A stretch of DNA of 64,000 nt from Hydrogenobacter sp. T-2. Its GTDB lineage: Bacteria > Aquificota > Aquificia > Aquificales > Aquificaceae. Positions 28,859-42,585 of this stretch are shown here, piece by piece. The translations under genes were made by a program, and so were the position numbers. The stretch covers positions 502,041 to 566,040 of the forward strand of contig NZ_CP117180.1 in assembly GCF_033971325.1 (NCBI RefSeq), read 5' to 3'. Numbering within the stretch: position 1 is the stretch's first letter; every line of letters starts with the position of its first letter. The notes beneath the pieces were generated by a model that saw only the letters and a list, made by a program, of their open reading frames with translations, was not told where the DNA came from and made no database searches.

Positions 28859-29945
28859 CTTTCAATCCCACAATTGGCAGCTAAAACCTTTTATTTTTCC
28901 TGTTCTTATGTCTCCCAGTGTTATCCTTTCAATCCCACAATTGGCAGCTAAAACAAAGAGGGACAGATAGATAACATGCAAAAGCTATACCACTTTCAAT
29001 CCCACAATTGGCAGCTAAAACACTTCAAGTAGAGACATCACAAAAGATTACATATGGGCCTTTCAATCCCACAATTGGCAGCTAAAACCTGCAACACGAG
29101 GAACAGGTTATAGTGCTTGTTAACCTTTCAATCCCACAATTGGCAGCTAAAACAAAAGATATACAGCAGCGTGGTACAGGAGACAATTCTCTTTCAATCC
29201 CACAATTGGCAGCTAAAACACCTCCTTTATGAAAAGTTTTTTGCAAACGCAGGTCTCTTTCAATCCCACAATTGGCAGCTAAAACGACACATTTATGTCA
29301 TCAAAGCTATAGCCTGCAAGAGCTTTCAATCCCACAATTGGCAGCTAAAACCATAGGATAGCATAACACTATAGCTTGCCTCATTACTTTCAATCCCACA
29401 ATTGGCAGCTAAAACGTCTACTGTGTAGGTGTCTCCTTTCCTCTTAACTTTCTCTTTCAATCCCACAATTGGCAGCTAAAACAAACTTTACCTTTGCAGG
29501 TCTTACAGGAAAACTTTACTTTCAATCCCACAATTGGCAGCTAAAACATGTCAACCCAGCTCTGTGTTTGCATGTCATACTTCTCTTTCAATCCCACAAT
29601 TGGCAGCTAAAACGCTCTCGTCCTTTATCTTGTTAAAAAGATACTTGAACTCTTTCAATCCCACAATTGGCAGCTAAAACTTTCAAATCGGAAGGCTCAG
29701 AATAAATAATAATGTACTCTTTCAATCCCACAATTGGCAGCTAAAACCCTTATCCTGGCTGTCCCATCTCCTGCTACTTCGATCTTTCAATCCCACAATT
29801 GGCAGCTAAAACCATACGGAGGACTGACGCACTTATTCCTTGATAGCTCTTTCAATCCCACAATTGGCAGCTAAAACAAACTTAGCTCCACTACGGCTTT
29901 GACTTCCTGTTCCTCTCTTTCAATCCCACAATTGGCAGCTAAAAC
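28859..29945 (-). CRISPR. Type I-B CRISPR array, 17 repeats and 16 spacers
   Basis: Seventeen copies of a 29-nt repeat start at 28859, 28926, 28993, 29060, 29125, 29191, 29257, 29323, 29387, 29454, 29519, 29585, 29652, 29719, 29784, 29849 and 29917. Spacers are about 35-38 nt. On the minus strand the repeat begins GTTTTAGCTGCCAATTG and ends GGGATTGAAAG, the usual 3' end that gives an 8-nt crRNA handle. I saw no base differences between copies, including the distal one at 28859. Transcription should run from the cas2 side toward lower coordinates. No spacer matched the rest of the window by eye. Confidence 0.98.
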
Positions 29946-36384: not shown

Positions 36385-36879
36385 TTAACCCTCCTTCTCT
36401 TTTGGTTTTATGATAGAGCCTATAAAGGCATACATAAAGGCTTTAAAGGTATCTTCATCATAATAGGGCTTAAAGGCTTCTATAAGTTTATCGGGTATCG
36501 TTTCACCGTTAGTTATAAATATCCTTACTACACTGTATTCCACATCACTTCGCCTTCCAGCTCTTATTTGTTCAAGGATCTTAAATCCCATCGTGGCAAA
36601 ACTCTCACCAAGCCTGTCTCTATATTTTTTGCCCAAGTCTGCAAGATCCTGCAATAAGGAGGATACGGTTTCCATCTTGAGTTTTTCATATACTTCTTGT
36701 GAAGTTTTATCCGCCCTTTCAGTATCAATTTTATATTCCAGAAGAGAAACAATAGCATTATCAAGTCTCTTTTTTGATTCATATAAACTTTTAACGTCTT
36801 TTACACTATGAGGTTCTTTTTCAATCTTCCAAGCGATCTCCTTTAGTAATTCTTCCGGAGTTTTTTCACTATTCTCCAT
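36385..36879 (-). CDS. Small helical protein between cas8 and cas7, probable stand-alone Cascade small subunit (Cas11-like)
   Basis: A 164-residue, mostly alpha-helical, highly charged protein (ELLKEIAWKIEKEP, LLQDLADLGKKYRDRLGE, KAFMYAFIGSIIKPKEK). No family match that I can name. In many I-B systems the small subunit Cas11 is made from the C-terminal end of cas8 by internal translation. Here the Cas8 is only 365 residues, and this gene supplies the missing size (365+164 = 529). Its ATG (36879) lies within the cas8 end in another frame, preceded by a strong SD AGGAGG. So it looks like a separately encoded Cas11. The inference rests on position, length and helicity only. Confidence 0.6.
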   Translation of the reverse strand: MENSEKTPEELLKEIAWKIEKEPHSVKDVKSLYESKKRLDNAIVSLLEYKIDTERADKTSQEVYEKLKMETVSSLLQDLADLGKKYRDRLGESFATMGFKILEQIRAGRRSDVEYSVVRIFITNGETIPDKLIEAFKPYYDEDTFKAFMYAFIGSIIKPKEKEG

Positions 36880-37966
36880 ATTTGACCCTCCTGTCTGTTA
36901 TTTTAGCATATAAATCCAAGACCCGCCTCAGAACTATATGCGGGTTCTGCCTGTTCTTATTTTTTGTGAAATATGTATTAAGTTTTTCGTTTTTAATATA
37001 GGCTCTTAGGGATTCGTGTGCAACCTTTAGAAGTTCATCATGTCTACCCTCCAAAACAATCCTAAGTATGTGGTATTCGCCTATTTGTGAAAGAATAGAA
37101 GCTATTTCTCTATCAGTTAAAAGAGTCTGTATGTTTGATGGAAGATTGTAAAAATCTACCGATGTTTCGTCCTTGATTACAATTTCAATATTCATCGCCG
37201 TCCATCTATTTAAAACTGTATTTATTTTTGTAGTATATTCAATTAAGCTCATCCCTAATATATCAAGTGGGCTTTTGTCTTCTGAGTCTTTAACAACAGA
37301 AATCTCTCTAAACAATCTATTAAGCCAATACATAGTTTCAAAGGATGGAGTATTTATAAATACCTCCGTTCCGTCTGAAAGTTTAGTAAAAGCAAGATGA
37401 TGATGTAAAATTAAAAACGTGCACATGTGACATATCTTAAGGCTATTATCTAAATTCCACGCGGAGTTAGGAAATTCTCCAACAGATGGACCAAGTAGTT
37501 TATTATTATGTAGACCAAAGTTTTCAATTTTTTCTCTGAATTTTCCAAGTGATTCTTTATCTTTGATATTTTGATCGCCAAGTTTTACATATATTGGATT
37601 ATCACATAAATCGCAGTTTCCTTTACTTATTTGTAAATTTTGATTTCCAAGTTCTCTTATCAAAAGCTCAAAAGCCTCCTTTTGTTTCCCTTTAGTATCT
37701 ATAAAGTTAGGATAGTATGGATTCTTACCTTTTAGGTTAACAACCTTATTCTTGTCAAGATAGTAGTTAACGCGTATACAACTAAAAACTCTCGGATTTA
37801 CTTTGACTATTTCCTTCTCAAATTCATATTTTTTATGTTCTTTAGAACACCATATCAAGTAGCCCTTAAGGTTTTTCTCTTCCTTGTCTAAACATCTAAG
37901 AAATCCTATTACCCCCGCATTATATAACCAACTTGATGGATACAATTCTATCCATCCATTACTCAT
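36869..37966 (-). CDS. cas8: CRISPR-associated protein Cas8 (Cst1/CXXC-CXXC type), short form
   Basis: 365 residues. The N-terminus WIELYPSSWLYNAGVIGFLRCL is typical of Cst1/Cas8a1 proteins, and two zinc-finger halves, CDLC (118-121) and CHMC (179-182), give the CXXC...CXXC signature. It is the large subunit that reads the PAM. It is short for the family and lacks a clear C-terminal helical bundle, which the next gene may provide. It overlaps cas6 by 8 bp and the next gene by 11 bp. Confidence 0.88.
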   Translation of the reverse strand: MSNGWIELYPSSWLYNAGVIGFLRCLDKEEKNLKGYLIWCSKEHKKYEFEKEIVKVNPRVFSCIRVNYYLDKNKVVNLKGKNPYYPNFIDTKGKQKEAFELLIRELGNQNLQISKGNCDLCDNPIYVKLGDQNIKDKESLGKFREKIENFGLHNNKLLGPSVGEFPNSAWNLDNSLKICHMCTFLILHHHLAFTKLSDGTEVFINTPSFETMYWLNRLFREISVVKDSEDKSPLDILGMSLIEYTTKINTVLNRWTAMNIEIVIKDETSVDFYNLPSNIQTLLTDREIASILSQIGEYHILRIVLEGRHDELLKVAHESLRAYIKNEKLNTYFTKNKNRQNPHIVLRRVLDLYAKITDRRVKYGE

Positions 37967-39689: not shown

Positions 39690-39706
39690 TTGGCAAGTTA
39701 TTTGCA
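39690..39706 (+). promoter_or_regulatory. Sigma-54 (-24/-12) promoter
   Basis: TTGGCAAGTTATTTGCA has GG and GC separated by exactly 10 bp, matching TGGCAC-N5-TTGC. The predicted start near 39715 leaves about 30 nt to the ATG at 39744, room for the strong SD AAAGGAGG. It drives the DUF2173 pair. Confidence 0.78.
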
Positions 39707-39743
39707 TAGAATGAAAGTGAAAACCTTTAAAGGAGGTAGAACC

Positions 39744-40085
39744 ATGGCAACACTTAGCAAGCTCAAAGAGCTCATGTCACTGCCTGGTGCAGTGGCAGCA
39801 GGAGAGTTTTCAGATGACGGTAGGCTTCTTGCCTACTACGGTAACATTGATGAGAAGTCCGCAGAGATCGCTGCTATGATGTGTGCTGCAAACAAGCTCA
39901 TGGGCAATATGCAGGCAAAGGGTTGGAGTGCCTACACTGGACAGGATGGCTTTTATCCTGTTGTGGGTTTTGCAGTTGCTGGTGGCAAACACGTTGCATG
40001 CATAATGGGTAATGTGGGTGTGTTCTTGGAGCTTGACAAGGCAGACTTTGACAAGACCTTTGAAACCCTTTCCAGGTATATCTAA
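39744..40085 (+). CDS. DUF2173 family protein, copy 1
   Basis: About 113 residues from the ATG at 39744 (MATLSKLKELMSLPGAV), preceded by AAAGGAGG; an in-frame ATG at 39690 lies on the promoter and is not used. Conserved words are AAGEFSDDGRLLAYYGNI, AAMMCAANKLMGNMQAKGW and IMGNVGVFLELDKADF. The alternating pattern recalls small roadblock/LC7-like proteins, but the function is unknown. A near copy follows directly, and both are under a sigma-54 promoter. Confidence 0.83.
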   Translation: MATLSKLKELMSLPGAVAAGEFSDDGRLLAYYGNIDEKSAEIAAMMCAANKLMGNMQAKGWSAYTGQDGFYPVVGFAVAGGKHVACIMGNVGVFLELDKADFDKTFETLSRYI

Positions 40086-40101
40086 AAAGGAGGTGTAAAC
40101 C

Positions 40102-40437
40102 ATGGCAAACCTTGACAGACTCATGCAAGTTAAAGGTGTTTGGGCGGCAGGTGAGTTTACCGATGATGGTAAACTTGTCGCTTACAAAGGCAATATTTCA
40201 GAAGAGCAAGCGGCTATGGCTGCAGAGATGTGCGGGGCAAACAATGCTATGGCTAAGATGCAGTGCGATGGATATACTGCCTTCTCTGGTCAAGAGTGGA
40301 CGCCTCTTATGGGCTGGGCTCTTACTGGTCCAAAGTATTCTGTATGCGTAATGGGTAATGTGGGGGTATTCGTTAACAACGACGAGGTGTCCTTTAACGA
40401 GGTCTTCAAGGCACTCAGAGAAGTAGCGGGCAAATGA
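40102..40437 (+). CDS. DUF2173 family protein, copy 2
   Basis: 111 residues, starting MANLDRLMQVKGVWAAGEFTDDGK, with strong SD AAGGAGGTG. It shares CGANNAMAKMQ, SVCVMGNVGVFV and the overall plan with copy 1, differing at many surface positions, so the two probably form a hetero-pair or have separate roles. A terminator follows within 15 bp. Confidence 0.83.
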   Translation: MANLDRLMQVKGVWAAGEFTDDGKLVAYKGNISEEQAAMAAEMCGANNAMAKMQCDGYTAFSGQEWTPLMGWALTGPKYSVCVMGNVGVFVNNDEVSFNEVFKALREVAGK

Positions 40438-41011: not shown

Positions 41012-41019
41012 TTTTGCCT

Positions 41020-42585
41020 ATGGATTTTTCTTCCTTTGACAGTCTTTTTGATGCAGTTCTTGTGATAGATGAAAATTTCAAGGTAATTTATGCCAACAGG
41101 TCAGCCAAGGCTCTTTTACAGCGTGAGGATATAGAAGGTAAAAACTGCAAGGGACTTTTCTCCATATGTAATTCCTGTCCCTTTGGGTATGTAAGGGAGG
41201 AGGGGGAAGGAGTTCAGGTTTACGATGTGGAGACCATAAATTCAAGGCACGCCTGTTGGAGCATGTCGCCCTTGTATAAAGAGGGAAGGTTTGTGGGCGC
41301 CCTTGAGGTCTTTAGAGATGTTAGCAATGTGGTTCACTGCATAGTGGAGGCGGAGCGTCAAAGGACTTACAAGGAGACCATACTAAACTCCATAGTGGAA
41401 GCTATACTTGTCCTTGACCCACAAGGTAATGTAATAGAACACAACAGAGTTGCAAGCAGGATGTTATGTAGGGAAGAGGAAGGTATCTTAATAGGCAAGA
41501 ACATAAAAGAGCTTATAAACCTGTCCCTTGAAGAGCTACCTCCAGAAGGTGAAAGGTCTGATATATTCGTGGAAACACCCTGCGGAAGACAGAAGGCATC
41601 TCTTCTTGTTTCTCCCATGTCCTCTGGCTTTGGTTATGTGGTCTCCTTGTATGTGTTAAACGAGGTATCTGTGTGTGAGCTGGGAGAAGAGGAAACAATA
41701 ATAACAAAAAGCCCGGTCTTTCAGAAGGTGCTGGATACGGTAAAAACCATAGCGGATTACGATGTGAACGTCCTTATTGAGGGAGAAACGGGAACAGGTA
41801 AAAGCCTACTTGCTAAATACATACATTACCTTTCTCCTAGAAGAAACGGTCCCTTTGTAAAGGTAAACTGTGCTGCTATTCCAGAGAGTCTCTTAGAAGC
41901 TGAGCTTTTCGGATACATAAAGGGAGCTTTTACTGGAGCGGTTAAAGATAAGCCGGGTAAGGTAGAGCTTGCCGACGGTGGAACCCTGTTTTTAGACGAG
42001 ATAGGTGATATGCCACTTCACCTGCAGGCAAAGATACTCCACTTGGTGCAAGACAAAGAGTTTGAAAGGCTTGGAGATACAAGGACAAGAAGGGTAAATG
42101 TTCGCATAATAGCTTCCACAAACAAAAACCTAAGAGAGCTTATAAAACGCGGTGAATTCAGAGAAGACCTCTACTACAGGCTCAGCGTTGTGAGGCTATA
42201 CCTTCCTCCCCTCAGGGAAAGAAAGGAAGATATACCAGCACTTCTTAAGCACTTCTTGGAAAAGTATGCGAGGAAATACTCAAGGAGAATAAAGGGCTTT
42301 TCCTCCGAGGCAATAAGGCTTTTGCTTTCTTATCATTTCCCCGGCAATGTGCGTGAGCTTGAAAACATAGTAGAGCGTACGGTTATCACTTGCAGAGGAA
42401 GTCTGATAAACCTTGAGGATATTCAAATTGAGGTAGAAAACTCTCAAAGGGAACAAGAAGAGGAGAAGGAAAAGATAAGAAGAGTCCTTGAACAGGTGGG
42501 TGGGAACAAAAGCCTTGCGGCAAGAATGTTGGGCATGCACAGAACCACCCTCTGGAGGAAGCTAAAAGAGTTAGGCATAGGTTAA
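41020..42585 (+). CDS. Sigma-54-dependent transcriptional activator with two PAS domains
   Basis: About 521 residues. Two N-terminal PAS domains (about 5-115 and 125-225), the first with cysteines in LFSICNSCPFGYV and SRHACW that could bind metal or sense redox; AAA+ domain with Walker A EGETGTGKS, sigma-54 contact loop GAFTGAV, Walker B GGTLFLDEIGD and arginine finger region; a Fis-type HTH (NKSLAARMLGMHRTTLWRKL) at the end. There is no receiver domain, so it is controlled through the PAS part. A sigma-54 promoter and palindromic site lie 1.3 kb upstream at the DUF2173 pair, its most likely target. Confidence 0.9.
   Translation: MDFSSFDSLFDAVLVIDENFKVIYANRSAKALLQREDIEGKNCKGLFSICNSCPFGYVREEGEGVQVYDVETINSRHACWSMSPLYKEGRFVGALEVFRDVSNVVHCIVEAERQRTYKETILNSIVEAILVLDPQGNVIEHNRVASRMLCREEEGILIGKNIKELINLSLEELPPEGERSDIFVETPCGRQKASLLVSPMSSGFGYVVSLYVLNEVSVCELGEEETIITKSPVFQKVLDTVKTIADYDVNVLIEGETGTGKSLLAKYIHYLSPRRNGPFVKVNCAAIPESLLEAELFGYIKGAFTGAVKDKPGKVELADGGTLFLDEIGDMPLHLQAKILHLVQDKEFERLGDTRTRRVNVRIIASTNKNLRELIKRGEFREDLYYRLSVVRLYLPPLRERKEDIPALLKHFLEKYARKYSRRIKGFSSEAIRLLLSYHFPGNVRELENIVERTVITCRGSLINLEDIQIEVENSQREQEEEKEKIRRVLEQVGGNKSLAARMLGMHRTTLWRKLKELGIG

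Follow-up and report, generated by a model that had tools for sequence, protein, structure and literature searches.

The window analysed here, a stretch of 64,000 nucleotides from the heat-loving bacterium Hydrogenobacter sp. T-2, holds a complete CRISPR-Cas locus of type I-B in split form, with cas8 and cas11 as separate genes. The operon lies on the minus strand in the order cas6-cas8-164-aa ORF-cas7-cas5-cas3-cas4-cas1-cas2 and is followed by a 17-repeat array (Table 1). The assignment to type I-B rests on Cas7 of the Cst2/DevR kind, Cas5b, Cas3 with its HD domain, Cas1b and Cas4, which all exceed the curated cut-offs, and on the presence of the array. In a search of the organism's own 1.69-Mb genome, this operon is the single cas1-bearing locus, and Cas11b is matched just once. 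Elsewhere in the window, as read from the sequence, a tandem pair of adjoining ORFs at 39690-40437 (131 and 111 aa) codes for two small proteins that look related to each other. The pair is upstream of an ORF that resembles a PAS-sigma54 regulator (41014-42585).

Table 1. Features of the split type I-B locus, in positions of the window.
Feature	Coordinates	Strand	Evidence and remarks
cas6, 257 aa	37959..38732	-	TIGR01877 7.7e-28; 8-nt overlap with cas8
cas8b1/Cst1 short form, 365 aa, ATG start	36869..37966	-	TIGR01908 6.5e-6; PDLC01204 1.2e-92; alignment of relatives
cas11 Shine-Dalgarno (SD) AGGAGG	36887..36892	-	sequence; within cas8 3' end, 7 nt 5' of cas11 ATG
cas11b, 164 aa, ATG start	36385..36879	-	PDLC01193 8.7e-40, PDLC01190 7.5e-28; 41 of 49 loci; helical model, pLDDT 89
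cas7 (Cst2/DevR), 366 aa	35282..36382	-	TIGR02585 3.4e-37
cas5b, 285 aa	34456..35313	-	TIGR01895 2.9e-32
cas3 (HD nuclease-helicase), up to 880 aa	31833..34475	-	TIGR01587 1.4e-75, TIGR01596 2.4e-19
cas4, 165 aa	31324..31821	-	TIGR00372 1.3e-27
cas1b, 333 aa	30335..31336	-	TIGR03641 1e-139; sole cas1 in genome
cas2-like ORF, 93 aa	30050..30331	-	putative, by position, size and sequence reading
CRISPR array, 17 x 29-nt repeat, CTTTCAATCCCACAATTGGCAGCTAAAAC on +	28859..29945		repeat search; spacers ~35-39 nt

The Cas8 is of the Cas8b1/Cst1 type by both profiles, with 25.8 bits against a cut-off of 19.4 for TIGR01908 and 1.2e-92 for PDLC01204. A preliminary description gave it 365 residues with a CXXC-CXXC finger, and this holds, as the two pairs C118/C121 and C179/C182 are invariant or at least 90% conserved when 24 relatives are aligned. 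The same description denied it a C-terminal helical domain. This stands as far as the Cas11-like tail of long Cas8b proteins is concerned, since those ~100-130 residues are missing, but helices are still predicted at the very end (298-305, 310-324 and 342-364).

The protein matches positions 163-383 of the long Cas8b model PDLC02050. A global hhalign comparison of the alignment of Cas8 proteins with fused Cas8b yields E=2.7e-54, to which we give little weight as the printed alignment range is degenerate. A Foldseek search of its model against the PDB returned no significant match.

The next ORF starts 11 nt inside the cas8 end (36869-36879) in a different frame. Thus the gene begins as described earlier, inside cas8 and in another frame with its own AGGAGG, and the 164 residues were rightly called helical, the AlphaFold2 model being all-helical with pLDDT 89. 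By its sequence, the 164-aa protein is Cas11b, the separately encoded small subunit, as the preliminary description had thought probable. It matches the PADLOC Cas11b profile PDLC01193 (8.7e-40) over residues 5-163 of 164, and PDLC01190, labelled 'Small subunit of some of I-B systems', at 7.5e-28. Both profiles are matched by all 25 sampled relatives.

The comparison proposed earlier with the C-terminal domain of long Cas8b shows homology. As a single protein, the window Cas11b matches positions 369-491 of PDLC02050 at a modest 5e-6. A profile of 25 separate Cas11 proteins matches one of 20 fused Aquificota Cas8b proteins with an hhalign E of 5e-12, at the last ~80 residues of Cas8b and over residues 89-164 only of the 164-aa protein. 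The separate Cas11b and the tail of Cas8b are therefore homologues.

Structure prediction of the protein alone, also proposed earlier, adds its helical nature and no significant fold match. Among Foldseek hits of the model in the PDB none is significant and the best Cas-related one is 6ifn_C of a type III-A Csm complex (E=3.1), and sequence searches of the PDB found no Cas11 match. Hence the Cas11b identification is carried by the sequence evidence. NCBIfam holds no model that meaningfully matches the window Cas11b or its relatives, so Cas11b is likely annotated as hypothetical in many genomes.

How common the split arrangement is was examined by way of Cas7, because a scan of a genome-contig collection of 84,980 species with the single window Cas11 protein gave no match. 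Scanning the same collection with a Cas7 alignment yielded 49 loci spread over many phyla, chiefly in thermophiles and in groups without cultured members. This sampling does not in itself select for split or fused forms, its seed sequences being from split operons and the mini locus described below.

A split cas8 with separate cas11 is present in 41 of the 49 loci and a fused gene in five (L052, L063, L084, L086 and L087); the other three (L047, L066 and L072) lie on cut contigs and are counted as neither. The sampled split loci keep the gene order cas6-cas8-cas11-cas7-cas5-cas3, and the 41 pairs mostly overlap by 4-29 nt in different frames with a strong SD. The split form is thus real and widespread and dominates its own lineage. 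A protein of this family occupies the corresponding place in the operon at 41 of the 49 independently sampled loci, and the ORF matches PDLC01193 over its full length, so it is no chance open frame.

The sampled loci also vary in the lengths of their proteins. Cas7 is ~450-530 aa instead of ~360 in about ten split loci (L035:4685-6250, L069:5492-7084, L073, L076-L079, L083 and others), the extra length in L035 being a large mid-protein insertion. The separate Cas11 is only ~100 aa at L070:421-717, L073:5148-5459 and L074:5205-5504. This is the size of the internal product of fused genes, and the ~60-residue N-terminal helical part of the window Cas11 is missing there.

Within the window's phylum, Aquificota, Cas11b is matched in 44 of 136 genomes. 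A separate cas11 stands beside a full cas8 in four of them (G000, G038, G045 and G063), and in nearly all other matching genomes Cas11b is the Cas8b tail. G045 and G063 each have one split and one fused operon.

G038, from the window's genus, carries a further I-B operon and, belonging to it, an array of 12 repeats (L092:8698-9480). In this operon a single 186-aa mini Cas8-Cas11 takes the place between cas6 and cas7-cas5-cas3 (L092:13735-14295, minus strand, equal to G038:C1:1229737-1230294). The mini protein joins the first ~70 residues of Cas8b (PDLC01204 3.7e-11) to Cas11b (PDLC01193 3.9e-10), without CxxC fingers or the Cas8 core. Its gene overlaps tightly with the neighbour genes, so it does not look decaying. 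It is the sole case among the 136 Aquificota genomes, and a search of plasmids and viral contigs found none. N-terminal matches in G028 and G043 were rejected as mini forms, since they lie close to contig ends and are read as truncated cas8 genes.

Two other readings of the 164-aa ORF were weighed against Cas11b. It could be an unrelated accessory protein, such as a regulator, an anti-CRISPR or an adaptation factor, with a Cascade that works without a small subunit. All-helical small proteins are readily mislabelled, and the searches above gave neither a significant fold match nor a meaningful NCBIfam model. This reading is nevertheless very improbable in view of the specific full-length match to a Cas11b profile and the homology to the fused Cas8b tail; where a system lacks the gene, this sequence is present as a tail of Cas8.

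Less credible still is that a frameshift or sequencing error at this spot has broken up an ordinary fused cas8b, as might be suspected from two frames that share only 11 nt. Its chance is negligible, and the distribution of split pairs refutes it, with the split recurring in 41 of 49 related loci and a strong SD preceding the second ATG in most. The window Cas11 is moreover ~60 residues longer at the N-terminus than the internal products and has its own start region.

The ribosome sites accord with separate translation of Cas11b. In the window, the predicted SD duplexes with the anti-SD are about equal for cas11 (-10.8 kcal/mol) and cas8 (-10.6 kcal/mol). Over the split loci, the cas11 SD is predicted to be the stronger in 31 of 40 (Wilcoxon p=8e-4), as would be expected were more Cas11 than Cas8 required.

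A corresponding site is found in the fused genes. In 25 of 26 fused Aquificota cas8b genes, an SD and an in-frame ATG lie 99-115 codons before the stop, a site being counted when 5 or more of the 6 SD bases accompany the ATG. There are 25 such sites in the 572 codons of this zone, compared with 1 in the other 13,330 codons of these genes, a contrast that stays very large even with a smaller effective number, some of the 26 genes being near-copies and the zone having been chosen after the sites were seen. The reading frame through the internal SD differs between genes, so that it encodes Gly-Gly in some of them and Gln-Glu-Val/Leu elsewhere. This suggests that selection acts on the ribosome site rather than on the amino acids.

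Such a site in fused cas8b is what the internal-start model predicts (PMC11096372, PMC11899642). The Cas11 of the window does not come from an in-frame start inside cas8, as internally translated Cas11 of types I-B, I-C and I-D does, but has an ORF of its own in a different frame. The earlier view of the separate gene as the explicit form of the internal-start arrangement is borne out by the fused Aquificota genes, in which an SD and an ATG occur at the equivalent point.

On the Cas7 tree, the split and fused forms are related by a minimum of four changes, and a tree that keeps all fused rows together on a single side is rejected (AU p=0.0005). Two fused loci, L063 and L052, are nested among split rows, both as metagenome assemblies in which single-base junction errors are possible. 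L063 has the SD aaggag and an ATG exactly where its split relatives L070 and L074 start Cas11, with start sequences of MNEKFINIM against MTEKHIDTL and MSEKHIDTL. L052 keeps gggaggg and an ATG inside the fusion, for a predicted product of 134 aa. The nesting of both loci, with the ribosome site and start kept at the junction, indicates that the two forms interconvert. It appears that a separate gene can become an internal start by small junction changes, the ribosome site staying. At L088:1567-3603, cas8 and cas11 share a frame and only 12 nt separate them, so that a single lost stop codon could join the two.

As to origin and not identity, the separate gene may be ancestral and every fused Cas8b-Cas11 of the lineage a product of later fusion, a history that we regard as possible and somewhat doubtful. 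It is in line with the separate cas11 of types I-A and I-E (PMC11899642), with the nesting of L063 and L052 among split rows and with the rejection of one fused side at the same AU p of 0.0005. However, the fused form is seen in the sole outgroup used and in the early-branching rows of Desulfofundulus and Thermotogales; a single early fission followed by re-fusions thus fits equally well. Support at the deep forks is also weak (52/55 and 54/75), and a very long branch leads to the outgroup.

The best explanation of the window, held with high confidence, is a split I-B system whose tail-less Cas8b1/Cst1 would work with a Cas11b from its own overlapping gene as the belly of Cascade. A belly role of holding the strand belongs to internally translated Cas11b in other I-B systems and to separately encoded Cas11 in types I-A and I-E. 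In the window, cas8 would give the short product without a Cas11 tail, and Cas11b would be translated by re-initiation or independent initiation at the AGGAGG inside the cas8 end. By analogy, we infer that several Cas11b copies assemble into Cascade, line its inner face next to Cas8 and retain the DNA strand that is displaced as the R-loop forms. As the Cas8 lacks the tail, the belly cannot include a covalent copy from the Cas8 C-terminus, and separate Cas11b would form it entirely.

A known I-B Cascade has the composition Cas8b1-Cas7b7-Cas5b1-Cas6b1-Cas11b3, where the belly supporting the non-target strand consists of the Cas8b C-terminal domain and three Cas11b (PMC11096372). The Thermotoga Cas8b1 fails to co-purify with the complex without Cas11 (PMC13199841).

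A broader proposal is that the split pair is a distinct, widespread I-B variant with a belly of free Cas11 only, and that it turns repeatedly into the fused form with an internal start through small junction changes that keep the ribosome site. The case for it is evenly poised. If it is true, the origin of internal translation in Cascade becomes testable by sister systems, even within G045 or G063. Sister systems with both solutions also allow testing what the covalent Cas8-Cas11 copy contributes.

A separate Cas11b with a short Cas8b is not a first, being already in the PADLOC profile library, and reviews seldom mention this I-B arrangement. A standalone cas11 is said to be absent from Haloferax (PMC11899642) and from type I-B generally (PMC13199841), Cas11 coming from inside cas8 in both accounts. 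As papers of 2025-2026 still deny a standalone I-B cas11, the split case is useful, and the window with 41 related loci makes a common exception to that rule. In E. coli, translation from an internal Cas11 start can fail (PMC13199841). For heterologous thermophilic I-B Cascades, systems with separately encoded Cas11 would be a practical choice.

Among known systems, the PADLOC profiles PDLC01193 and PDLC01190 (Cas11b) and PDLC01204 (short Cas8b) describe the same proteins at full length. The split pair there shows no essential difference from ours, and the library gives no mechanism or distribution. Types I-A (Csa5/Cas11a) and I-E (Cse2) have, like the window, a separate cas11 adjoining cas8. 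They differ from it by their Cas8, Cas7 and Cas5 profiles, and profile searches gave no detectable sequence match between the window Cas11 and their Cas11 families.

Internally translated Cas11b is known in type I-B from Synechocystis 6714 (PMC11096372), Haloferax volcanii (PMC11899642) and Thermotoga maritima Cas8b1 (PMC13199841). Internal Cas11 translation was first reported by McBride et al. 2020 (Mol Cell), according to the mentions of that work in PMC11899642 and PMC13199841. The homology of the window Cas11b was shown with fused Cas8b tails of Aquificota and Thermotogales. The window Cas11 has 164 aa and a separate gene, whereas the internal product of fused Aquificota genes has ~100-115 aa. 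The window and the internal-translation I-B systems share the subtype by their Cas7, Cas5 and Cas8 profiles, and in both Cas11 is translated on its own.
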